Origin: Desulfolithobacter dissulfuricans
GTDB taxonomy: Bacteria; Desulfobacterota; Desulfobulbia; Desulfobulbales; Desulfobulbaceae
Length of the DNA stretch: 64,000 nt
Reading direction: 5' to 3'
Assembly: GCF_025998535.1 (NCBI RefSeq)
Contig: NZ_AP024233.1
Span: forward strand, 62,001 to 126,000
Shown here: positions 1,003 through 63,068 of the stretch, one piece after another
How the letters are laid out: the number at the start of each line of letters is the position of its first letter
Numbering within the stretch: the stretch's first letter is position 1
Program-made: the position numbers and the translations under genes
The notes under the pieces: model-generated
What the model was told of the DNA's origin: nothing
What the model saw: only the letters and a program-made list of their open reading frames with translations
Databases searched by the model: none

Positions 1003-3288
1003 ATGAATCCGACAATCGCTCACTGGTTATTTTTTGTTCCTGTTCGCTTGCTGCGTGGAGAGCCTATCTTGCAGTCGCTTTCTTTTGTGCGAAAATTCAG
1101 GATGATGGAGAGGGCGGAATTGTATCGGGTTCAGTTTGAGCTTTTACAGGCGCAGGTAACGCGTGCATATGATAACGTTCCGTATTTTCGTAATAGATGG
1201 AATTCACTGTTGGGTAATAAAGGCCAGGTTTCAACTTTACAGGACTTTGCCCGTCTTCCGATCATTGAAAAAAAAGATATTAAAGAGAATCGCGGGTTAC
1301 TTGCCAATCCAGAAATAAAAAAATTTGATGTCAGGGGGACCAGTGGTTCTACCGGGACACCTTTGCAGTTCATAAAGGACAGACGGGCAACAGCCTTCAT
1401 GGACGCTGTCATGTATGATGCATATTCCTGGCACGGAATTAACCTTGGAGATCGGCAGGCACGATTCTGGGGAATGCCCCATGATAAAAAAAATGAAACA
1501 ATTGCCAGGTTAAAGGATTTTCTCATGAACAGGAAGCGGTTGTCCGCATTCCAGTTGTCGCAAGTTGAATACCAGAGATTTGCGGACCTTTTGAAAATCT
1601 GGCGTCCTCATTACTGTTATGGCTATCCGAGCCTGTTGTGTGAATTTGCTGGTTTTATTCTGTCGCATGACATCAATTTAGCTTCTCTTCGCATGAAAGC
1701 GGTTATTTGCACGGGAGAAGAACTGAAGGAGCAACAGAAAAAACTTTTAGGGCAAACTTTTCATTGCCCTGTAGTGAATGAGTATGGGTGTACAGAGGTT
1801 GGTGTCATAGGCTTTGAATGTACTGAGGGAAATATGCATGAAATGTCGCCCAATATTTATTTTGAGATTTTGAAGGGTGGGCAGCCGGTGCTTGACCAGG
1901 AAGGCGAGGTAGTTGTCACCGAACTGCATGCACAGACCTCTCCCTTTATTCGCTATAAAACAGGGGATCGTGGCATTCGCAGCAGTTCGACCTGTTCCTG
2001 CGGCTTGCCGTACCCGGTAATAAAAATTTTATCAGGTCGCATTGACGACTATATCCTCACGCCGGATGGGAGGAAAGTGTATGATGCAATTCTGGCATAT
2101 ACTCTGAAAAAGGGAATAAAAAAGTTTAAAGCTGTGCAACGGGACACAGGAACGCTTGAAATTATGATTGTCCCTGACCAGGGACTGACCGGGGAGCTAT
2201 TAGAAACCTATGAAAAAAAATTTAAGAAGCACATATCTTCTGAAATGGAGTTTGTTTTTGTGAAAGTAGAAAATATCCCCAAGAGCGATCTGGCAAGTTA
2301 CGTTATTTTAGGTCAGAAATTCATTAGGATGAGCAATAGCGATACATCTCCCATATTGCCGTCTGTTACAGTCGTCGTGCCTGTGAAAAATGAGGCAGCG
2401 TATATTAATCAGTGTTTACAGTCGCTGGTCAGTCAGGATTATCCGCAGGGCAAGGTCACTATTGTCGTTGTAGATAATGGATCAACTGATGGCACTCTGG
2501 AGATTGTCAGGTCCTACAGCGACAGGGTTGTTTTACTGGAAAAAAAAGACGGTACTATTGCGTCGTTGAGAAATTATGGTGCCCGATATCGGGACAGTGA
2601 GCTGATAGCTTTTCTTGATGGTGATTGTGTGGCTCCGATTAATTGGTTAAGTACAGGTAGCAAGATGTTAATGGCTGGTGAACGTCTATCATGCGTTGGC
2701 TTTGCCATGGCTCCTCCTGAAGAGAACAGTAGTTTTGTTGAAAAAATATGGTACGGTCTCGGAAATTCCAGTAGGCATGTGGGTACGGTTGAAGTTGATT
2801 GGCTGTGCAGCTTTAATTTAATGGTTAAAAAGAGTTTTTTTGATCGTGTTAATGGGTTTGATGAGCAACTTGAGACTGGCGAAGATTTTGATTTTGGCAT
2901 TAGGCTGAATAAGATATCCAACGTATTGTTTTGTGATGATATTTTAATAGATCATCTAGATAATGTTTCGGGCTGGATAGTTTTTTTTAAGAAAGAGTTC
3001 TGGCGTGGTCGTGGTGCTCTATGGAATTACATGCGAAGCAAGGATAGAAGACGAGAATTTGTAAGCGTTGTGGTGCCGGTCACATATGTTTTAGTTTTAT
3101 TGGCCTTCTTGATACTTTTCGTGATGGGGAGTATTTTTTCTCTATCCTGTTTGTTTTTCGTTCTGTTTTTGCCTCTTGTTGCCCTCTGCAAAAAGAAAGT
3201 TTTCACTATGGATACTCTGTTGCCAGGATGGTTGTTTTATTTTGTCTATTTAGTTGCTAGGGGAGTTTCTGCTTTTTGGAGGAAATAG
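1003..3288 (+). CDS. CapK/PaaK-like AMP-dependent ligase joined in frame to a GT2 glycosyltransferase (probable frameshift fusion)
   Basis: As given, this is one 761-residue frame. Residues 1-440 are a CapK/phenylacetate-CoA-ligase-like adenylating enzyme with the P-loop-like GTSGSTGTP at 112-120, YGCTEVG and a C-terminal domain. Residues from about 450 are a family 2 glycosyltransferase (VVVPVKNEAAYINQ, VDNGSTDG, AFLDGDC) ending in hydrophobic membrane segments. The junction looks artificial. One extra base near 2287-2290 would make the ligase end PKSGSGKLRYFRSEIH and stop at TAG 2325-2327, one base before an ATG at 2329 that opens the GT2. That C-terminus is what CapK proteins normally have. 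So two coupled genes, 1003-2327 and 2329-3288, are likelier than a natural fusion. Both fit polysaccharide assembly. Confidence 0.8.
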   Translation: MNPTIAHWLFFVPVRLLRGEPILQSLSFVRKFRMMERAELYRVQFELLQAQVTRAYDNVPYFRNRWNSLLGNKGQVSTLQDFARLPIIEKKDIKENRGLLANPEIKKFDVRGTSGSTGTPLQFIKDRRATAFMDAVMYDAYSWHGINLGDRQARFWGMPHDKKNETIARLKDFLMNRKRLSAFQLSQVEYQRFADLLKIWRPHYCYGYPSLLCEFAGFILSHDINLASLRMKAVICTGEELKEQQKKLLGQTFHCPVVNEYGCTEVGVIGFECTEGNMHEMSPNIYFEILKGGQPVLDQEGEVVVTELHAQTSPFIRYKTGDRGIRSSSTCSCGLPYPVIKILSGRIDDYILTPDGRKVYDAILAYTLKKGIKKFKAVQRDTGTLEIMIVPDQGLTGELLETYEKKFKKHISSEMEFVFVKVENIPKSDLASYVILGQKFIRMSNSDTSPILPSVTVVVPVKNEAAYINQCLQSLVSQDYPQGKVTIVVVDNGSTDGTLEIVRSYSDRVVLLEKKDGTIASLRNYGARYRDSELIAFLDGDCVAPINWLSTGSKMLMAGERLSCVGFAMAPPEENSSFVEKIWYGLGNSSRHVGTVEVDWLCSFNLMVKKSFFDRVNGFDEQLETGEDFDFGIRLNKISNVLFCDDILIDHLDNVSGWIVFFKKEFWRGRGALWNYMRSKDRRREFVSVVVPVTYVLVLLAFLILFVMGSIFSLSCLFFVLFLPLVALCKKKVFTMDTLLPGWLFYFVYLVARGVSAFWRK

Positions 3289-12521: not shown

Positions 12522-14063
12522 TTGAAGGGGTGGAACATGATACACAAAATCAAAGCGTTACATAGCAATGGGTCGGGGATGTCCATCCGTGGCATTGCGC
12601 GACGGCTGGGGATCTCCCGCAACACGGTCCGGAAGTACCTGGCCATGTCCGAGGAGGAGATCCAGGCCCGGCAGAGCAACCGTGAGAGGCGCAAGCTCCT
12701 CGATCCCCACCGGGCCTACATCCGGCATCTCATGGAGTCGTTTCCCGGCTTGAGCGCGGTGAAGATCCACCGCAAACTTAAGGAGAAACACCCTGACCTG
12801 CCGGTGTCGATCCGTACGGTGCGAAGATACGTGGCCCGGCTCAAGCAGACCTCCACGCTCAAGCAGGAGCGCTATTACGAGCCGGTTCTGGACATGGTCC
12901 CCGGGGTCCAATGCCAGGTGGACCCCGGCGAGTTGCGGGGAGTCCTGGTGGCCGGCCAGCCGACGACCGTCTACTTCGTGGTCTTTGTCCTCTCCTATTC
13001 GAGGCTGATGTACGTGGGGCTTTCTCCCCGGCCTATCGACACCGGCACGTTCATCCGCATGCACGACGCAGCGTTTCGGTACTTCGGCGGTCGGCCCGAG
13101 GAGTGCGTCTACGACCAGACCAGGCTGGTGGTGATCAAGGAACGCTACCGGGAGCTGACCCTCAACGAGCAGTTCCATGGCTATGCCACCGTAGCCGGTT
13201 TCCGGATCCGGGCCTGCGAGGGATACGACCCCGAGAGCAAGGGCAAGGTGGAAGCCGGGGTCCGGTACTTAAAGGGTAATGGACTGGCCGGGGAGCATTT
13301 TGACTCCTGGGCCGACCTGGAAGCCTATATGGCCGAATGGCTCGACGCCACGGCCAACGCCAGAAAGCACGGCAGCACTGGCGAGTCACCGCGGCAGCGC
13401 TACGAGCGGGACGAACGCGGCCACATGCGGCCGTACCTCACCCCGAGCATCGACTTCACCCCCGCCTGCCGGGAGACCCGCAAGGCGGACAAGACCGGGC
13501 TCGTCTCCTGGAAGAGCAACCGTTACTCGGTGCCCATGCGTTACCAGCGCGCCACGGTGGGGGTGCGCGAGGAGCAGGACTTCCTGGTGTTCCTGGACCT
13601 GGAGACCGGCGAGGAGATCACGCGGCACGCCCTGTGTCACGGCCGGGGCCAGGTGATCAAGAAGAAGTCCCACTACCGGGACAAGGCCCGGCGGATCGCC
13701 GACTGCGAGGCGGAGATCCAGCGCCGCCTGGGCGACGACGGCATCCGCATGAGCGCCCTGCTCAAGAAGGGCGCGCCGGACATCTACAAGGACCAGCTGA
13801 CCGGCCTGATCCGCCTGCTGGACCGCCACGGGATCCCGGCCCCCCTGCTGGCGCATCTCCTCGACCAGCCGCGCCTGACCACCTCCCGCATTGAGGACTA
13901 CCTGGAGGCGTACCGGAAGCGCCCGGACCTGCTCGACGAACTGCGGACAGGCCAGGAGCCCCGGGAGCGGCCGGCAGCCGCGGCCGACAGCGCCACCAGG
14001 GCCATGCTGCGCCCATACGCCGCTATCTGCGAGACAGGGGAGGTGAGCGATGCCGTCCATTGA
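12522..14063 (+). CDS. istA: IS21-family transposase IstA
   Basis: A 513-residue transposase. An N-terminal helix-turn-helix (MSIRGIARRLGISRNTVRKY) is followed by the integrase core, whose DDE residues can be placed at D134 (CQVDPGE), D198 (CVYDQTRL) and E244 (GKVEAGVRYL). The C-terminal half contains the Mu-type transposase tail. The start is taken as TTG because GGAGGAGGAGG lies 8 bases upstream; ATG at 12537 is an alternative. It overlaps istB by 14 bases. Confidence 0.95.
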   Translation: MKGWNMIHKIKALHSNGSGMSIRGIARRLGISRNTVRKYLAMSEEEIQARQSNRERRKLLDPHRAYIRHLMESFPGLSAVKIHRKLKEKHPDLPVSIRTVRRYVARLKQTSTLKQERYYEPVLDMVPGVQCQVDPGELRGVLVAGQPTTVYFVVFVLSYSRLMYVGLSPRPIDTGTFIRMHDAAFRYFGGRPEECVYDQTRLVVIKERYRELTLNEQFHGYATVAGFRIRACEGYDPESKGKVEAGVRYLKGNGLAGEHFDSWADLEAYMAEWLDATANARKHGSTGESPRQRYERDERGHMRPYLTPSIDFTPACRETRKADKTGLVSWKSNRYSVPMRYQRATVGVREEQDFLVFLDLETGEEITRHALCHGRGQVIKKKSHYRDKARRIADCEAEIQRRLGDDGIRMSALLKKGAPDIYKDQLTGLIRLLDRHGIPAPLLAHLLDQPRLTTSRIEDYLEAYRKRPDLLDELRTGQEPRERPAAAADSATRAMLRPYAAICETGEVSDAVH

Positions 14064-14790
14064 GACCACCGTTGCCAAGTTCCGCGGCCTGCGCTGTACC
14101 AGCATCGCCGCCGGCCTCCCGGACCTGCTCGCCGCCGCCGAGACCAACGAGGTCTCATACCTGGAGTTCGCCGACATGCTGGTGGAGCACGAGCGCCGGC
14201 AGCGCAACCACAAGCGCATCCTCCGCAACCGCAAGGCGGCGGGCTTCCCCACAATCAAGCGGCTGGAGGAGTTCGACTACAGATACCAGACCACCATCAC
14301 CAAGCGCCAGGTCAACGCCCTGCTCGATTTCTCCTTCATCGACAACCGCGAGAACCTGATCTTCATCGGCCCCCCGGGCGTGGGCAAGACCCACCTGGCC
14401 ATCGGCATCGGCCACAAGGCCGTCGAGGCCGGCTACAAGGTCCTCTTCACCCGGGCCGCCGAACTGGTGGAGTCACTCGACCTGGCCCTGGCCAAGGGCG
14501 AGCTCAAGGCCAGGATAACGGCCCTGGCCAAAAACGACCTCCTGATCATCGACGAGCTCGGCTACCTGCCCATGAACAAAACCGCGCTCTACAACCTCTT
14601 CCAGCTCGTCAACAGCCTGTACGAGTACCGCTCCATCGTCGTCACCACCAACAAGGAGTTCACCGCCTGGGGCGACTTCTTCCACGACGACAACGTGGCG
14701 GTGCCCATCATCGACCGCCTGGTCCACCACTCCCGCGTCTTCATGCTCGGCGGCGAGAGCTACAGGCTGCGCCAGAAGCTGACAGGGTGA
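14050..14790 (+). CDS. istB: IS21 helper ATPase IstB
   Basis: A 246-residue AAA+ ATPase of the DnaC/IstB type. It has a Walker A motif GPPGVGKT at 107-114, a Walker B motif LLIIDELGYLPM, and a sensor-1 region IVVTTNKEF. IstB binds target DNA and activates IstA. The start lies within the end of istA, the standard arrangement for this family. It appears full length. Confidence 0.95.
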   Translation: MPSIETTVAKFRGLRCTSIAAGLPDLLAAAETNEVSYLEFADMLVEHERRQRNHKRILRNRKAAGFPTIKRLEEFDYRYQTTITKRQVNALLDFSFIDNRENLIFIGPPGVGKTHLAIGIGHKAVEAGYKVLFTRAAELVESLDLALAKGELKARITALAKNDLLIIDELGYLPMNKTALYNLFQLVNSLYEYRSIVVTTNKEFTAWGDFFHDDNVAVPIIDRLVHHSRVFMLGGESYRLRQKLTG

Positions 14791-25001: not shown

Positions 25002-26750
25002 TCATTTTATTTCTATAATGTTGTTTATTTGAGGTGCAACGAGTTTGTTCCCGATAATTATTTCCCCAGTATATTCTCCCTCTTGACCATCGCTTGTGTA
25101 GGCAGTGATGGTGAATCTGTATGTCAGCTGTGGGTCGAGTCCGCTAATGGTGAAGCGTGTTACGTTGCCCACGTCTATGGGCGAGTTTCCTTCTGGCAGG
25201 CCTGTGCCGTCGTATGGCGGACCGGAGTCGCCAGTTTTGTAATAGAGTTTGTAGCCTGCCACTGGTTCAGGGTTGAGGCTCCAGATGAAGGTGACCGTGT
25301 CGCTTGTGGGCTCGGCAATGGAAACAGTCATGGTGGCGGTGTTGGAGTCCTGGATGCCATCATTCGCCTTGAAGGTAAAGGAATAGGACGCGTCCATGGA
25401 ATCCGATAACAGTATGGTGAATTCTCCTGTTGCCGGATTGGTAAGGGTTACTGCGCTCAGCGGATCCGAGACGATGGTATAGGTCAGGGTATCGTTGTCT
25501 GCGTCTTCGGCTGTGAGGAAACCTGTAACAGACTGGCCTCGGGTTCCATTCATGGTGCCGTTGTTAGCCACTGGTGGGGTGTTGGTCGTTGCAATAGTGA
25601 CGCTAACAGTGGCCGTGTTCGAGGTTGTAATGCCATCGCTGACAGCGAAAGTGAATGAGTCTGTTCCGCTGGCGTTCTGGTTTGGAGTGTAGGTGAACGC
25701 GCCGGTATTCTGGTCGGTTATGGTTGCCGTGCCAAGCGATCCGTTGCTGACGATGGTGTATGTGAGCGGATCCTTTTCCGGGTCGCTGGCCTGGAGTTGA
25801 CCGTTGACCGGTGTGTTGCTTATCGTGCTCAGGGAGACATCGTAGGCTGTCGGCTGATCGTTTGTCGGCGTGATGGTGATGGAGACCGTTGCCGTGTTAG
25901 AGCTTGAGCTGCCGTCGCTTACGGACCAGGTGAAGGAATCGGTGCCGAAAAAGTCCGGGTTGGGCGTGTAGACAAAACTGCCGCTGGCACTGTCCGTGAT
26001 GACGGCGAGTCCATGTTGTGCGTTGGACTGTAAGGTGTAGGTTAAGGTTGTTGAGTCGATATCCGCGGCGAGCAGGTTACCTGCCAGGGCGGTGTCTTCA
26101 GGACCGGAGAGGGTGACATCCTCTGCTGTTGGCGGGTCGTTCGCCGGGGTAATGGTGATGGCGACTGAGGCTGCATTGGATGTGCCGTTGTCATCAGTGG
26201 CGACGAACGTGAAGGTGTCGTTTCCGTTAACGTTGGGATTGGGCGTATAGGTATAGCTTCCTGACGTTCCATCCAGGGTGACAGTTCCCAGGCTGGGAAG
26301 AGCCTGTAGCTGATAGGTTATTGGCAGTCCGGACGAGTTTGTAGCGGTGACTGTGCCGGTTATCGTCTGGTCTTCGAGAGTGCTGATAGAACTGTCCAGG
26401 GCCACCGGTGGCTCTGCAGGTGGAGCGATTGTGGTGACTGGTTCAAGGATGACTTCCGGAGCATACGGGCTTTCATCGGTGCCTATATAGGCCGTAATGG
26501 TAAAATAATAGGTCGTGTTGTCGTCCAGGTTCGTGACTGTGTAGGTCGTTACATTGCCGACATCGATGGAGTTGGCATACGGCGGGCCAGAGGTTCCGGT
26601 GTTGTAATAGATGGTGTAGCCTTCCACCGGCTCGGGGTTCGCGGTCCAGGTGAACGTGGCATCCCGGGCAAAAGAAGGTATTGCCGACAGGAGAAAGCAC
26701 ACCGAAGCGAAGAGCGTGATGAGTGTTATGAAGTGTTTTCTTTTGCCCAT
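25002..26750 (-). CDS. secreted multi-Ig protein: FN3-like ends with four tandem cadherin-like repeats
   Basis: A 582-residue exported protein with signal peptide (LITLFASVCFLLSAIPSFA). An FN3-like module (TFTWTANPEPVEGYTIYY) opens it and a near copy (VTFIWSLNPEPVAGYKLYYK) closes it. Between lie four repeats of about 95 residues of the tandem-95/cadherin-like kind, each with signatures such as PPVA/PPTAEDVTL, LTYT, YTPNPNFNG-like and DSFTF.VSDG. Such stalks are typical adhesins or matrix proteins. No sortase, PEP-CTERM or autotransporter end is seen, so release or binding to EPS is likely. Confidence 0.8.
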   Translation of the reverse strand: MGKRKHFITLITLFASVCFLLSAIPSFARDATFTWTANPEPVEGYTIYYNTGTSGPPYANSIDVGNVTTYTVTNLDDNTTYYFTITAYIGTDESPYAPEVILEPVTTIAPPAEPPVALDSSISTLEDQTITGTVTATNSSGLPITYQLQALPSLGTVTLDGTSGSYTYTPNPNVNGNDTFTFVATDDNGTSNAASVAITITPANDPPTAEDVTLSGPEDTALAGNLLAADIDSTTLTYTLQSNAQHGLAVITDSASGSFVYTPNPDFFGTDSFTWSVSDGSSSSNTATVSITITPTNDQPTAYDVSLSTISNTPVNGQLQASDPEKDPLTYTIVSNGSLGTATITDQNTGAFTYTPNQNASGTDSFTFAVSDGITTSNTATVSVTIATTNTPPVANNGTMNGTRGQSVTGFLTAEDADNDTLTYTIVSDPLSAVTLTNPATGEFTILLSDSMDASYSFTFKANDGIQDSNTATMTVSIAEPTSDTVTFIWSLNPEPVAGYKLYYKTGDSGPPYDGTGLPEGNSPIDVGNVTRFTISGLDPQLTYRFTITAYTSDGQEGEYTGEIIIGNKLVAPQINNIIEIK

Positions 26751-26776: not shown

Positions 26777-27958
26777 TTATTTTTTGTTGAACAGCAGAAG
26801 TTTGTAGATTGCCGGCAGAATCCGAGAGGCCTTGTACTGTTGTTCGGTCATGATCTGTACCCTTGCCGTGGCGGTGTCCTGCTTACCGCTGTCGTCAGTA
26901 ATGGTCAGCGTGATGGTATAGGTGCCTACGGCGCTATAGGTATGACTTGCGATCGGGCCGGTTCCTGTGGAACCGTCGCCGAAGTTCCAGCTGTACTGGA
27001 CAATGGTCCCTGTTGTTGTAGATGGGGTGGAACTGGTGGCATCAGCTGTAACATACAGCGGCGCCGTGCCTGTGGTGCTGTTCAGCGAAATTATGGCTGT
27101 TGGCTCCGGGGTTGTCGTGCCGGTGTCGGTTGGGGCCGAAACAATGACCGGCAGGGTGGCACTGGCCGTTGCTCCGGCAGAGTCTTGAACTGTCAGCTCG
27201 GCGGTATAGTTGCCTGCTGCCAGGTACACGTGTGAGACCTGGGCCCCGGTTGCTGTGGATCCGTCGCCGAAATTCCACACGTAGGTCAGGGGATCGTTAT
27301 CCGGGTCGGATGATCCTGATCCGTCGAAACTGATGGTCAAAGGGCTGGTGCCAACGGTGGTGCTGGCGGATATTGCCGCAACCGGTGGATTGTTGGGATT
27401 TGAAAGGTCGGTAACAGCAATTTGCACCGAGGTTGTCTGTATGGCGCCGGTATCGTCCTGTATGGTAAGGGAGACAGTGTATTCTCCTGCAGCAACAAAG
27501 GTGTGTTCTGTTACAGATTCGTAACTAGAAGCACTTCCGTCGCCGAAATTCCAGGTGTAGTTTGTAATGGTTCCACTACTGGTGGAGCCTGTGGCGTCAA
27601 AGGAGTAGGTGAAAGAGTTTTGGGTCTGCGCATACTGGATAGAGGGGACAAGCGCATCGTTGAAATATACTGTGAACGGTTGCGAGTGGGGGCTCTCTTC
27701 ACCCGTGGTTGAGAAAGTGGTCATGGTGAAGGTGGTGCTGTTGTCGGCAACTTCGACGTCGCAGAGCATGGATGTCGCGTTGGGGTCGTTGATTTCACAG
27801 ACATTGTTACCTGTCGCGTCATACAGCCGGTAGCCGGCGATGGTCACGTCAGAGTATTGCGCCGCGGTCCAGGTGATTTCAAGATGACGTTGCACAGCCA
27901 GAGCCGGGCCCGTGAGCATCAGGCTGAAGAGTATAAGGAGCGGCAGGAGGATTCTCAT
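26777..27958 (-). CDS. secreted protein with three PKD domains
   Basis: A 393-residue protein. The start is the ATG opening the signal peptide MRILLPLLILFSLMLTGPAL; longer starts lack any signal. An FN3-like N-terminal module (LEITWTAAQYSDVTIAGYRL) is followed by three PKD domains, each with the hallmark WNFGDGS: YTWNFGDGSASS, YVWNFGDGSTAT and YSWNFGDGSTGT. PKD domains mediate protein-carbohydrate or protein-protein contacts outside the cell. The FN3-like module is shared with the two other secreted proteins in this region. Confidence 0.85.
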   Translation of the reverse strand: MRILLPLLILFSLMLTGPALAVQRHLEITWTAAQYSDVTIAGYRLYDATGNNVCEINDPNATSMLCDVEVADNSTTFTMTTFSTTGEESPHSQPFTVYFNDALVPSIQYAQTQNSFTYSFDATGSTSSGTITNYTWNFGDGSASSYESVTEHTFVAAGEYTVSLTIQDDTGAIQTTSVQIAVTDLSNPNNPPVAAISASTTVGTSPLTISFDGSGSSDPDNDPLTYVWNFGDGSTATGAQVSHVYLAAGNYTAELTVQDSAGATASATLPVIVSAPTDTGTTTPEPTAIISLNSTTGTAPLYVTADATSSTPSTTTGTIVQYSWNFGDGSTGTGPIASHTYSAVGTYTITLTITDDSGKQDTATARVQIMTEQQYKASRILPAIYKLLLFNKK

Positions 27959-28134
27959 ATTATGTACTGGGAGTTGAAGTTGCTGAAAAGTCCATTTATG
28001 ACACGCTGATTGTCTAGCAGGATTCGTGCCATGGTGCACCTGCTTGTGGCTGGAGCCGTGGACAGAGGAACATCGGATGCTGTCTGCAGGTGGCCCGGGG
28101 CGAAGGCAGGGTGGAACACGTCATCTCCTGCAGA

Positions 28135-28931
28135 CTATCTGGGCTGTTGCTGTTCGGCCATGGCCCATTGAAGCCATGAGAGCTGCTTGCCGGAAAAATC
28201 GTCTTTTTTTCTTTCGATGAATTGTTTCAGCAGGTCAAGGCTGTCAAAGGTTATGGAATAGTAGCCAGACGAATAGGCGCCGTGTCCGAGAAGGGAGGCC
28301 TTGCCGTTGTCGGCGAACTTCAGGATAAGTTCGTGGTTTTCATAGGAAGTGGCGGTGTCAGTGCGGGTAATGTTGCCATATTCTTCCCTGGTTTTGTCAT
28401 TGTAATATTGCTGGACCAGGACAATAACCAGAATCAGGGCTGCGGTGGCCAGTAATCCGGCAATGCGGGTGGAGGTCCGGTTGTTGAAGAGGTCCCTGAT
28501 GGACCAGGGGATCAGTTTGGTAATCGACGATTCTATGTCGCTGTGCGATGCCAGGACCGGTTCCAGCACTTTGCCGGTGTATTTTTCAATGGTGGATACC
28601 GCCTCACTGTCCGAAGGGTCGATCATGGCGATTTTGAGGGTATTATGTTCGCCGGTGGAGAGTGGTATCGCATTGTATTTTCTGCAGATATGTCTCGGCA
28701 GGATTTTTTTGACTTCTGGTGAAAACTCCTCCTTCACCCTGACGATATCAAGGCCAAGTTGTCTTGCCAGGGCCGAGTGGAGTTGTTCTTCCGAGATAAT
28801 ATTCATCTTGATCAGAAGATAACCCAGTCTGCGATTCCCCCGACCTGCAACTGCAGGGCCTTGTCCAGGTCTTCCTGGGTAATTACTCCAGCGGAAAGAA
28901 GCAGTTCGCCAAGACGTTGTTTTGTCGCCAT
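28135..28931 (-). CDS. GspE-N/MshEN-like domain protein with one membrane segment (frameshift near 5' end)
   Basis: The frame from 28938 begins with an unlikely sequence. Adding one base to the CCCCC at 28837-28841 lets the gene start at ATG 28931 with MATKQRLGELLLSAGVITQE and gives about 265 residues. Two 24-residue motifs of the form RLG-x8-I/V-I-x4-L-x3-L-x2-Q then follow (residues 6-29 and 35-58), the pattern of type II secretion ATPase N-terminal and c-di-GMP-binding MshEN domains. Next come the rest of the GspE-N domain, a membrane helix (IAGLLATAALILVIVLVQQY) and a C-terminal domain. The ATPase half is absent, so this is likely a sensor or adaptor. Confidence 0.7.
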
Positions 28932-29069
28932 TGTGCACCTTCTGGTAAAGATATATTCTTTGTTGTGTTCAAGACACCCCAAGATAATTATAGGCCACCG
29001 GAGAGTCCTTTTGCAAGGCAGGACTTGCAGGAGGTGAATTGTATCTGATTGGAGCTGCAGGGAAATTGG

Positions 29070-31238
29070 TCAGGGAAGGGATTGCAGGAGGTCCTCTATT
29101 GTCTGGCGCAGTAGGGGATCGCTGGTTTTCGTTTTTGCCTTGAGCAGGTTTTGCCTGGCAGGAGCTACTTGTTTCTGCTTCAGCTGGACCATGGCCAGGT
29201 GATAGAGAATCTGCGGATTATCCGGTTCAAGGCCGACGGCTTCTTCCAGGAGCCAGCCGGCCCGGACGGGCAGGTTTTTTTTGTAATAAACCCAGCCCAG
29301 CGTATCTGCGATGGCTGCATTGTCAGCAAGCCTGTCATAGGCTAGGGTGGCCAGACGCAGGGTTTCGTCTATATTTTCCGGTTGGTGTTCAAGGTAGAGC
29401 CAGGCCAGGTTATTGGCCAGCAGGGGAGAATCCGGTCTCTGGGACAAGGCTTCCTGAAGCAGGCCGATGGCTTTTTCAGGTTGTCCGGTGGAATTATAAT
29501 ACGACGCCAGTTTGATCTGTGCTTCCTCGAAGTTTTTAATACGGCTGGTCGCCTGCAGGAGTACCTGTTCCAGCTTTTCGGAGTGTTGAGGATACAGTTT
29601 AAAAAGTTGCAGGTATGTTTCCTTCATCTCGGGGTTTGCCTGGAGAGCCTGTTCGAAAGCATTTACGGCTTCTTCTTGGTTGCCAGCTGATAACAGGGTG
29701 AGGCCGTAGATATGGTACAGGTAGGCGGTGTTTCGGGCTTGGGCCTGGGCCTGTCTGAGAAATTTCAGGGCTTCTTCCTGGCGGCCCTGCTGGCAGAGAA
29801 GCCGGGTGTAGAGGAGGGTGGCATCAGCCAGGCTGGGTTCTTTGTCGATCAACTTCTGGAGGAGTGCCAGGGCCTGCTGTGGTTTGCCGGTGGTCGAAGA
29901 GATGATGCCTGCATAGTACACTGGGCCGGTCAGTGTCGAGTCAAGCAGAAAGGCCTTGTGAAGCCCTGTAAGAGCGTCGGTGTATTGTTTTCGCGCCAGC
30001 TGGATATTGCCCTGGATCTGGAAGGCCCGGGCATTTTCCGGTTCTCGCTCCTGGATACGCTGCACATGTTCAAGGGCCAGGTCGTACTCTCCGGTTTTGT
30101 AATAATAATCGGCAAGGGTTAGTTCGGCGGCGGTGAAATAGGAGTTCTGGGTCAAAGATGTAATCAGGCTCTTCTGGCCCAGGTTGTTCTGGCCGCTGGC
30201 CAGGTGCGCCAGGGCCAGTAGGTAATGGGCAATCGGCAGGCGGGGCTCTTTTTCCAGGGCCAGCTCCAGCTGAGATGCTGCAACCAGGTACTCTCCGGTA
30301 TTCAGGTAGTATTTGCCCTTTAGCAGCAGAAAATCCACGTCCTGGTTTTCTGCTGGCGACAGCGTGGCCAGCAGGCTCTCTGCCTGGTCAAACTGTTCAT
30401 CCAGGAGCAGGCTTTCCAGTTCCATTTTTTTGTAGAAACGGTTCTGGGGTGCTTGTTCCATCAGTTTTTTGTAGATGGACGCGGCCCTGGCGTAGTCGCC
30501 AGCCTCCAGAAACAGCTCAGCCCGTTGGACTTGGAGGTGCTGGTTGTTTGGAGCCTGGTCCAGGGCCTGCTGGAAAAAAAGATCAGCCTTTTCCCGCTCT
30601 CCTGTCAGCAGCCAGTAGTTGCCCATCTGCAGGAGAATCTCAGGAGATTTTGGCTGCTGAGCTGCCAGCTGTTCATAGACGGCGGCCGCTGCTGCGGTTT
30701 TATTCTGGCCCAGAAGGATAATGGCCAGTCGGGCCAGGGCCATCTGATTGCCCGGATCAAGGGCCAGTGCCTTCCGGTACTCATCGGTGGCAGGGAGGTA
30801 GCGTTCCTGGGCCGCAAGCAGGTCGCCGTGGAGGATCAGGTTGTCAGGGTCGTCTGGAAAAGATTTGAGTTTCTCCCAGCTGGCACGTGCTCCGGCCAGA
30901 TCGAAAATTTGAAGTTGGAGCTTCAGGAGGTTGCGCAGTGTTTCCTGTGAATCCGGGTGGCTGGCAAGGTGTTTCTGGAAAGCCTGAAGAGCCTTGGGGT
31001 ATTGGCCGCTCAGTTCGTAGGATTTGGCCAGGTTGTAATAAATATCGGGAGTCTCCGGGTTCAGGGAGAGCAGTTCGGTCCAGGTGGCAATGGCCTGGGC
31101 ATACTGTCGAGAGGCCATATATTCCTTCGCCTGGCTGTAGAGCCGCTGGTTGCGCTGTTCTGGAGATTCACTGCAGGAAGCGCAAGCCAAAGCCGTTCCG
31201 ATCAGCAATACGAGGAGAGGAATCCGGGCAGAATACAA
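29070..31238 (-). CDS. TPR-repeat lipoprotein of the PEP-CTERM/EPS type (PrsT-like)
   Basis: About 720 residues, almost all tetratricopeptide repeats (e.g. YYNLAKSYELSGQYPKALQA, LLANNLAWLYLEH, ADTLGWVYYKKNLP), after a hydrophobic signal (IPLLVLLIGTALACASC) that looks like a lipoprotein leader although the lipobox is not ideal. Length and repeat type match the giant TPR lipoproteins of exosortase/PEP-CTERM loci. The frame is open up to 31487, but those extra 84 codons mostly lie in repeat copy C and carry no signal peptide. I take the in-frame TTG at 31238, five bases from the repeat, as the best remaining start. The native start may have been lost by the insertion. Confidence 0.75.
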   Translation of the reverse strand: MYSARIPLLVLLIGTALACASCSESPEQRNQRLYSQAKEYMASRQYAQAIATWTELLSLNPETPDIYYNLAKSYELSGQYPKALQAFQKHLASHPDSQETLRNLLKLQLQIFDLAGARASWEKLKSFPDDPDNLILHGDLLAAQERYLPATDEYRKALALDPGNQMALARLAIILLGQNKTAAAAAVYEQLAAQQPKSPEILLQMGNYWLLTGEREKADLFFQQALDQAPNNQHLQVQRAELFLEAGDYARAASIYKKLMEQAPQNRFYKKMELESLLLDEQFDQAESLLATLSPAENQDVDFLLLKGKYYLNTGEYLVAASQLELALEKEPRLPIAHYLLALAHLASGQNNLGQKSLITSLTQNSYFTAAELTLADYYYKTGEYDLALEHVQRIQEREPENARAFQIQGNIQLARKQYTDALTGLHKAFLLDSTLTGPVYYAGIISSTTGKPQQALALLQKLIDKEPSLADATLLYTRLLCQQGRQEEALKFLRQAQAQARNTAYLYHIYGLTLLSAGNQEEAVNAFEQALQANPEMKETYLQLFKLYPQHSEKLEQVLLQATSRIKNFEEAQIKLASYYNSTGQPEKAIGLLQEALSQRPDSPLLANNLAWLYLEHQPENIDETLRLATLAYDRLADNAAIADTLGWVYYKKNLPVRAGWLLEEAVGLEPDNPQILYHLAMVQLKQKQVAPARQNLLKAKTKTSDPLLRQTIEDLLQSLP

Positions 31239-31242
31239 GTTA

Positions 31243-31407
31243 GTGCCTGTCCAGAAATGGTCTTTCGGAGTCTCGCAGGCTCGCTTACCTCGCCCGATCT
31301 CTGCGTCATGCTCAAAAAATAATGCTCGGAATATTACGCATATGCCTGCGCTTATTTTTTTCGCATTCCTTGATCTCGAACGAAAATCCTCATTTCTGGA
31401 CAGACAC
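31243..31407. repeat. dispersed palindromic repeat, copy C, at the 5' end of the TPR gene
   Basis: A 165-bp unit bounded by 17-bp inverted repeats, GTGCCTGTCCAGAAATG and CATTTCTGGACAGACAC (one mismatch). The core CGGAGTCTCGCAGGCTCGCTTACC is the same as in copy B, but the ends are unrelated to those of copies A and B. It lies where the promoter and ribosome site of the TPR gene should be. Confidence 0.8.
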
Positions 31408-31483
31408 AAGTTACCATGCCTTGCTCGGAAAGAGTCCAAAACAGCTGAAATCGTATGTTCAAACTGTCGAGCCAGCGAGTGTC

Positions 31484-32442
31484 TCACGATCTGGATCCAA
31501 AGATGATATTGAGAAAAATCAGGCAGAAGAACCCGATAACAAGGGACAGGACCTTGTGGGACAGGGCGTAGTCAAAAAGTTTGAAGGGCAGGTCCAGGAT
31601 CCAGGGTAGGCTGACCTCGCCTGATCCTCTGAAAGAGGCCCGGTCAGGGGCCTGTTGCCGGATGTTGTCGGATTCTGTATGTGGCTGGAACGTGTAACCA
31701 CTGCCGGGCACTGCGAAGGATCTCGGGGGGAGGCCTGTATCAGCTTGTTTCTCTGGACTAATACTGTCTGTAATTCCTGGAAGGAGGCTATACCATTTTT
31801 GTTGTCACCCCTCGGGCTGGATCCGGCCTGGGCGGGCCTTGGAGCGGTCGATACCTGTCCCTGGACGGTTGCCAGTCGCTGCTGGAGCTTGCCAACCTCC
31901 CGTGCCAGACCATTTTGTTGTGCCAGAGTGTTTTTGATAGCCTGTATCCGCTGCCTTTCGCCTGATGCATTGGTCATAAGATCGATCATGCCTGACTGAT
32001 ACGAGCTGCCGAGCAACACCTTGGCCCGCTCCTGTATCTTTGCATATTCATCCAGGAGTTTTTTGATGCGCAGGTTGGCATACAGAAAGTTGGCAAAGGG
32101 GTCCTGGCTCGCGGTCAGCGGGTTCCTGAACAGGGAAAAGATGGGCATATTACTTTCGATAATGTCGGCAGGCACGAAGTTGTCCGAAGCCGGCAGCAGG
32201 ATCGGTGGCGAGAGCGTCTTTTCTGTAAAGAGGTTAAGGTTATCCTGAACAGTGAAGGCAACCTGCCTTGAGCGGGCAGGAGCGTTTTCGCGCAGCAATA
32301 CCGGGCTGTTCTCGGCCGGGTCCAGATAATATCCCCAGGCTGTCGGCCGGAGTGCAGCCAATGAGCACCCACAGGCGAGGCTCATGAAAAAGAAGAGGCG
32401 GAGTATCAGCACAGTATGAATGGAGTGAGATTGTGACGGCAA
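31484..32442 (-). CDS. uncharacterised exported protein with C-terminal membrane anchor (frameshift)
   Basis: An N-terminal hydrophobic signal (TVLILRLFFFMSLACGCSLA) is followed by a helical, Gln-rich middle likely to form a coiled coil (LAREVGKLQQRLATVQ). As written, the frame ends in a Pro/Ser-rich tail. Adding one base to the GGGGGG at 31725-31730 lets it continue as SFAVPGSGYTFQPHTESDN and end with a membrane helix (VLSLVIGFFCLIFLNIIFG), giving about 319 residues. I do not recognise the family. It lies just upstream of the TPR lipoprotein gene and may work with it. Confidence 0.55.
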
Positions 32443-60953: not shown

Positions 60954-61662
60954 GTGTTTGCCCGGCATGGCGGGCAAACCCAGCCTGCGGAACGCAGGCG
61001 TCACCCCGACCAGGGGGAAGACAATCCGAATCGCAAGGGCGTTGCTGGCAACGGCAGGGTCTGAAGGAAGCGATAGGAAGTGAGCGGTACATAGCGTAAG
61101 TGAACCTGATTCGGCGTCATAGGTGGGTAAGCGTGCACAATAGCGTGAAGCCCGATACCTGGTCAGACCTTTGGCGTGATTGAGGATGGGATTGCTCACC
61201 GGGAGTTCGCCTTAACCGGGGAAGCCTCCTAGCGTACTTGCAGTACGAGAGTTAAGGAAGGTTCAAGGAGAGATCCAAGGCCTACCGAAGCGGTGGGAGG
61301 TGGCAGATGATTCCGTAGTAGTGATGAAATCCCGGCCGGAGAAGCCTGGTAACAGCGTGGAGGATAAAACCGGGATGACCTGTCAGCGTTGTTTGACAGG
61401 GGCTGGTATTTGCCAAAAGCGGTATCAGTTGCGAAGGGATGAAGTTTATTTGAAGGTTCCCTGAAGATCATGGAGGTCTGGAGTCAGAACACAAGCTGCC
61501 CGACGGGGCGGGGCACATTTTCGGCGGTATGCTGTGAGAGGCCGTCTGCTGATTTTGGCCGTTCATCGGAGTAACCTGAACAGTTGAGCGTACATTGCCC
61601 ATTGGGATAGAAGGCGCTCTCATTTGGGTGAAGACCCGGGGATTCCAGGCAGAAGTGGAGGG

Positions 61663-62952: not shown

Positions 62953-62966
62953 AGGAAAATAAACAG

Positions 62967-62998
62967 GAGCCGTATACGAGACCCGTACGTACGGTTCT
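62967..62998 (+). ncRNA. group II intron domain V catalytic hairpin
   Basis: GAGCCGTATACGAG...TACGTACGGTTCT has the typical domain V form, with GAGCCGTA pairing with TACGGTTC around a central bulge. A GGATGAGGCAAG/CTTGCCTCACC stem just downstream would be domain VI, with its branch-point A in the purine-rich strand. Confidence 0.75.
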
Positions 62999-63068
62999 GT
63001 GAGAGGGATGAGGCAAGCGTAATTAACTTGCCTCACCCTACTCGATCGTTTTATGGCGAAATGCGGCC

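Follow-up and report, generated by a model that had tools for sequence, protein, structure and literature searches.

The DNA analysed here, hereafter the window, is a stretch of 64,000 nucleotides from the single-contig genome of Desulfolithobacter dissulfuricans. On its minus strand, between positions 28135 and 28931 (stop codon included), lies the gene of a membrane-anchored protein carrying an MshEN domain, delimited with the help of open reading frames, Pfam, NCBIfam and 40 full-length relatives. The next gene downstream (26777 to 28039, minus) encodes a protein with three PKD domains according to Pfam, and beyond it lies the gene of a second repeat protein, with fn3, Big_9 and cadherin-like matches in Pfam (25002 to 26750, minus). 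Upstream (29070 to 31487, minus) stands the gene of a PrsT-like TPR protein, which scored 311.9 bits with the TIGR02917 model, just under the cut-off of 312.2.

The receptor gene is interrupted by one frame break. The ATG frame starting at 28931 ends after 39 codons, and an overlapping open reading frame, 28135 to 28938, is open to its own stop, which confirms both the coordinates given in a preliminary description of this DNA and the need, also noted there, to cross frames. Translated across the break, 28931 to 28135 (minus) yields a product of 265 residues. The break falls inside the codons of a five-residue spacer (28831 to 28844, minus), some 235 codons on its 3′ side are open, and G+C content per codon position has a similar shape before and after it. 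As deposited, the window copy does not encode the whole receptor in one frame, the cause being either a mistake in the assembly or a genuine, recent loss. All 40 relatives have the spacer region uninterrupted, i. e. without frameshift. In three of them (G013, G085 and G074) a stop was flagged within the match; as their open reading frames span the family length, the match was taken as overrunning the true stop. A second possible break was seen in the cluster, upstream of the TPR gene: the stretch 31519 to 32442 (minus) has an apparent frame change near its end, with a likely membrane helix in another frame.

The N-terminal part of the corrected product contains two adjacent 24-residue motifs of the RLG...Q type, as had been described. 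Motif 1, RLGELLLSAGVITQEDLDKALQLQ (residues 6–29; 28845 to 28916, minus), matches the strict motif published for MshEN domains (PMC5013675). Motif 2, RLGYLLIKMNIISEEQLHSALARQ (residues 35–58; 28759 to 28830, minus), misses the strict and the relaxed motif at one place only, where the turn Gly is replaced by Asn. The NCBIfam model for the c-di-GMP motif, NF053729, covers residues 6–58 over all of its 53 positions, with 62.3 bits for a cut-off of 38. A second MshEN subdomain, MshEN_C (residues 59–140; 28513 to 28758, minus), follows, as judged from the Pfam MshEN match (residues 71–140, E 3.8e-15) and from MshE and PilB chains of the PDB. With phmmer, residues 4–112 were aligned to VcMshE (5htl) at E 7.7e-14, and a better and longer match was obtained with PilB chains. 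The spacer between the two motifs has 5 residues (30–34). It had been held to be shorter than in MshE; this was mistaken, as Wang et al. 2016 (PMC5013675) describe VcMshE itself as having 5 residues between its two 24-residue motifs. The spacing being canonical, the case for a true MshEN domain is stronger than first thought, and “MshEN-like” may be replaced by “MshEN”.

Conservation of the putative ligand site was then scored by our own scheme over 41 aligned family rows, window included. Both half-sites of the window protein have the contact residues Arg, Leu, Gly, Leu, Leu and Gln. In the family, all 12 contact positions are kept in 22 rows, at least 11 in 36 and at least 10 in 40. Individually, Gly8 and Gly37 are present in 41/41 rows, Leu7, Gln29, Arg35, Leu51 and Leu55 in 40 and Gln58 in 39; Arg6 is kept in 27 and lost in 14. 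No row has a gap over the 53 positions (the window row crosses its break), and the spacer reads VGGNR in 20 of the 41; the family spacer is thus conserved, whereas that of VcMshE has been called non-conserved (PMC5013675). NF053729 matched the 28 relatives that were scanned with it (E 0.001). The published strict motif is met by few rows (2/41 for motif 1, 7/41 for motif 2) and the relaxed motif of Wang et al. by 15 and 27, because the turn residue varies freely in the family: it is G in both half-sites in 14 rows, and changed in one or both in 27. When any turn residue is accepted, together with a few additional residues at the first position, 34 and 35 of the 41 rows fit. According to Wang et al. 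(PMC5013675), perfect conservation of the motif may be dispensable, while XpsE, which is known not to bind, no longer has several of these residues. That this protein family may be c-di-GMP-responsive, as initially proposed, is supported by the conserved contact residues. The host probably makes the messenger, its genome having 19 GGDEF matches.

No ATPase family was detected by Pfam in the 265 residues, where MshEN was found alone, together with a sub-threshold DUF4388 match. In its place come a hydrophobic segment with a mean hydropathy of 2.42, probably a single membrane helix (residues 155–173; 28414 to 28470, minus), and an 83-residue C-terminal domain (28138 to 28386, minus). This layout, already recognised from the window protein, turned out to be conserved as a family architecture, the best 19-residue stretch reaching a hydropathy of at least 1.6 in 41 of 41 members. 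The C-terminal domain probably sits across the membrane from MshEN. An N-in topology would be expected, as MshEN needs access to c-di-GMP; the charges flanking the helix do not favour it (family mean of 1.5 Lys or Arg before and 2.2 after). A single-sequence AlphaFold model of the window C-terminal domain was fair (pLDDT 84.9, pTM 0.72) and has five strands followed by two helices, while a model of 236 residues was poor (pLDDT 47). Six residues of this domain, G4, G34, G41, F56, S65 and W71, are invariant over the 41 rows. None of the 41 members gave a Pfam match for it at E 0.001 (best E 0.024; nine families, each hit by one member); it had no sequence match in the PDB up to E 5, and its model no Foldseek match below E 0.5. 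The closest structural likenesses, to the KhtT N-domain (best Z 6.5) and to PURA and polo-box chains (Z about 6), were below trust level and were set aside.

To date, the family is known from one order. The 40 full-length relatives share 36–62% identity with the window protein, which places the architecture beyond chance, and all come from the order of the window genome. Among 56 other related genomes, 17 have a match that covers almost the full length. In the class, a search with query residues 59–265 at E 1e-20 gave 62 matches in 57 of 257 genomes (own genome included), all 57 belonging to the same family or the same order as the window genome. From the other 61 matches, 40 loci in 38 genomes were read, picked to span families and longer contigs, with 21 left out; each of the 40 encodes the full architecture. 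In a phylum-wide sample of 395 genomes, single-sequence and profile searches with the C-terminal domain alone each gave 4 genomes, again all from the window's order. A scan of genome contigs gave a single locus, in a MAG named Candidatus Anammoxibacter, where residues 6–62 only were matched. A tree of MshEN domains places the 41 family rows and the window gene row L004 in one group with moderate support (88/73), apart from ten ATPase-length MshEN proteins including the PilB of the genome; next to the group stand the long single branches L034 and L002 and the ATPase-length rows L025 and L035. The domain had been considered open to refutation if it grouped with ordinary GspE-N domains lacking the nucleotide site; it falls in a group of its own, with the site largely kept. 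So far, this is a one-order family of small membrane proteins with a motorless MshEN domain, frequently encoded next to secreted matrix proteins.

A simple script was used to call neighbouring open reading frames, and BLAST to group them. A same-strand frame of at least 200 codons was found within 1.5 kb downstream of the family gene in 37 of 41 loci, and was absent by this rule in the other 4. Of these 37 downstream proteins, 28 have PKD matches and 15 have H-type lectin matches (E 0.001). The 9 without PKD include a TPR protein (L073), a BrkB-like protein (L080), a solute-binding protein (L099), a sugar transferase (L100, in the same group as the TIGR03013 member of L072) and an XrtA polysaccharide deacetylase (L109). 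The pairing was also looked at from the side of the PKD domain, in 20 genomes chosen from the 57, mostly for long contigs, after PKD neighbours had been noticed. Among the matches listed, a PKD match lies within 3.5 kb of the family gene in 19 of the 20; none lies near the family gene of G141, or near the additional family copy of either G030 or G140. In five genomes with a complete list of matches (G000, G010, G074, G132 and G227) every PKD match is confined to the gene or the two genes adjoining the family gene. PKD genes are scarce: the own genome has three PKD matches, all within the gene next downstream of the receptor. A search for the same architecture beside PrsT-like genes had been suggested. 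This link is weak: the window's TPR group is present in 9 of 41 neighbourhoods, compared with 28 of 37 for PKD, and the PrsT-like gene was rejected as main partner. The main partner is the next downstream gene.

Some of the repeat proteins share a C-terminal tail, Y-[KRN]-LLL plus a few residues (for example ILPAIYKLLLFNKK and MLQVYKLLLLK), preceded by differing linkers. It was found at the C-terminus of the window protein 26777–28039 and in loci L072, L074, L075 and L106; over 1887 open segments there were 6 hits, one of them (L073) apparently unrelated. The tail-bearing gene comes directly after the receptor gene in the window, L072, L074 and L075, and about 6 kb upstream of it in L106. This is possibly a sorting or anchoring tail.

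From these data we propose, with a confidence somewhat short of even, that the protein is an inner-membrane c-di-GMP receptor governing export, assembly or surface retention of the neighbouring PKD/lectin matrix protein. The cytoplasmic MshEN domain would hold a single c-di-GMP molecule between the two half-sites of 24 residues, as suggested by the conserved contact residues. The change upon binding would pass through the single membrane helix to the small C-terminal domain across the membrane, which, to judge from the gene pairing, would act on export, assembly or retention of the adjoining PKD/lectin protein, with matrix deposition at high c-di-GMP as the outcome. In some genomes the receptor gene lies next to exosortase or exopolysaccharide genes. 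As its sequence stands, the window copy would not yield the full receptor. Being neighbours in the genome is not in itself evidence that the receptor acts physically on the PKD protein, and the “export component” of the preliminary description is one of several possible mechanisms. It is possible, though less likely than not, that MshEN, helix and new periplasmic domain together make up an inside-out device of a kind not described before, a direct, post-translational switch dedicated to the adjoining PKD/lectin matrix protein, which operates in one order with neither LapD/LapG nor PilZ. A link through RNA was also considered and rejected: no c-di-GMP riboswitch was matched at gathering thresholds in the window, nor in the 7 of 41 loci that were searched.

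The first alternative is that the protein is an exopolysaccharide co-polymerase comparable to Alg44, with a cytoplasmic c-di-GMP receptor, one helix and a periplasmic domain that would switch on a membrane glycosyltransferase or exporter of an exosortase-type locus, and that the PKD/lectin protein does no more than bind the resulting polymer. The layout of a receptor domain, one helix and a further domain is shared with Alg44 of Pseudomonas aeruginosa (PMC8461298), and NfrB of E. coli is a glycosyltransferase under MshEN control (PMC8669472). Given these two precedents, the receptor might switch either a matrix protein or a polysaccharide, and the gene pairing favours the former. The receptor of Alg44 is a PilZ domain, whereas the window protein has MshEN, no PilZ by Pfam, and a different C-terminal domain; NfrB resembles it by the use of MshEN in surface-polymer control, and differs by the glycosyltransferase that the window protein lacks. 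The N-terminal part of the window protein was matched by the NfrB model at 1.4e-14 and by a related glycosyltransferase model at 9.7e-23, both far under the whole-protein cut-offs. Its first 60 residues also match weakly (5.1e-6) the exopolysaccharide tyrosine kinase EpsG (TIGR03029), whose kinase domain is absent here; 20 of 28 relatives match this model too.

The genomic context bears on this alternative as well. Of the 57 genomes with the family, 38 have exosortase matches, compared with 55 of the 200 that lack it (Fisher p 1.2e-7); restricted to the better genomes, the figures are 26/38 and 37/110 (p 2.6e-4), kinship being ignored in both comparisons. Around the family genes we counted groups for XrtA-type sugar transferase, exosortase, EpsI, export protein and nucleotide-sugar dehydrogenase, each named from one representative, and scored PEP-CTERM-like tails with a self-made pattern. 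Within 10 kb, such groups were found in 13 of 41 loci, tails in 8, and either in 16, which together with the H-type lectin in 15 of 37 partners speaks for a polysaccharide role. In contrast, 25 of the 41 neighbourhoods, some of them cut by contig ends, have neither feature, and 19 of the 57 genomes with the family have no exosortase match. The own genome has one, 43 kb from the receptor gene and outside the window. Exosortase or exopolysaccharide genes thus co-occur with the family more weakly than PKD genes do, and we consider a co-polymerase unlikely, though worth real weight.

N-domains of the GspE/PilB type dock on platform proteins. The protein may be an adaptor of a type IV pilus or type II secretion system, a motorless N-domain that would dock on the platform, either replacing the ATPase or alongside it, and gate PKD export upon c-di-GMP binding. 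Compared to MshE, PilB and GspE ATPases, such as VcMshEN (5htl), the family has kept the two 24-residue motifs, the 5-residue spacer and the second subdomain, which matches MshE/PilB N-domains, and it has a membrane helix and C-terminal domain instead of the ATPase. Four other MshEN proteins of the genome are of the ATPase type (one above the PilB cut-off, one above that of GspE, two under both), and 3 of the 4 match the c-di-GMP motif model. Yet GspL, a platform protein of type II secretion, is only weakly seen in the genome (20.2 bits for a cut-off of 25.5), and no pil or gsp gene was found among 20 neighbour proteins scanned singly, a minority of the neighbours. We regard an adaptor as improbable, and favour the matrix-protein receptor. 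An ATPase of the PilB type in the own genome lies outside the window (L041:3329-5617); it has an N-terminal c-di-GMP motif, and its C-terminal stretch (residues 626–750) matches cyclic-nucleotide-binding regulators of the CRP type.

It is also conceivable, and quite improbable, that the MshEN domain is degenerate and has a structural role only, without ligand. Replacement of the turn Gly in at least one half-site of 27/41 rows and the loss of Arg6 in 14 would agree with this, while 39 to 41 of the 41 rows retain the main Leu, Gly and Gln positions as well as the second Arg; as noted above, perfect conservation may be dispensable, and the non-binder XpsE lost several of the same residues (PMC5013675). 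Finally, a decaying pseudogene of no account in the window genome, suggested by the break in the spacer codons and the possible frame change of the neighbour 31519–32442, is very unlikely in view of about 235 codons open past the break, a similar codon-position G+C, up to 62% identity to relatives and an intact spacer in 40 of 40 of these, and would in any case concern the window copy, not the family.

Receptors of the LapD type combine HAMP with degenerate GGDEF-EAL domains, whereas the window protein has no GGDEF, EAL, HD-GYP or HAMP domain by Pfam. What the protein proposed here would have in common with LapD/LapG, and with DvhD/DvhG of Desulfovibrio vulgaris (PMC13090378), is a transmembrane c-di-GMP receptor controlling a surface adhesin from inside. 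The LapG route was followed in 20 genomes and abandoned: no LapG-family match lies near the family gene in any of them, 13 having some elsewhere and 7 none at all, which makes a LapD-type control via the LapG protease unlikely. On a shared contig, the nearest match is 45 kb from the family gene, in the own genome. There, outside the window, a GGDEF gene adjoins a gene for a LapG-family protease (C1:134637-136313); this pair is perhaps a separate Lap-like system.

The receptor domain itself is already known, in many fusions. As MshEN is often fused to uncharacterised domains (Wang et al., PMC5013675), the present fusion may already stand in the supplementary tables of that work. In the literature searched, which included few subscription journals and no supplementary tables, we found neither the fusion of MshEN, helix and C-terminal domain nor its pairing with PKD/lectin proteins. 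In the same literature, no link of MshEN with exosortase or PEP-CTERM was found, nor a report uniting c-di-GMP, a PKD domain, an adhesin and the inner membrane. To our knowledge, membrane c-di-GMP receptors acting directly on surface adhesins are mainly LapD-type proteins and the DvhD variant. If the proposal is right, an MshEN receptor paired with a matrix protein of its own would add a further solution, compact (265 residues, one helix) and dissectable. The PKD/H-lectin proteins of this order would then have a function as well, and exosortase-type matrix loci might be reached by c-di-GMP along this path.

Other features of the window were recorded in passing. A single open reading frame at 1003–3288 (plus) combines a half resembling AMP-dependent CoA ligases with a glycosyltransferase half. 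An IS21 transposase and its IstB helper (12522–14790, plus) lie near glycosyltransferase and flippase genes, and Rfam matches to group II introns are present at 61042–61210 and 62965–63046 (plus).
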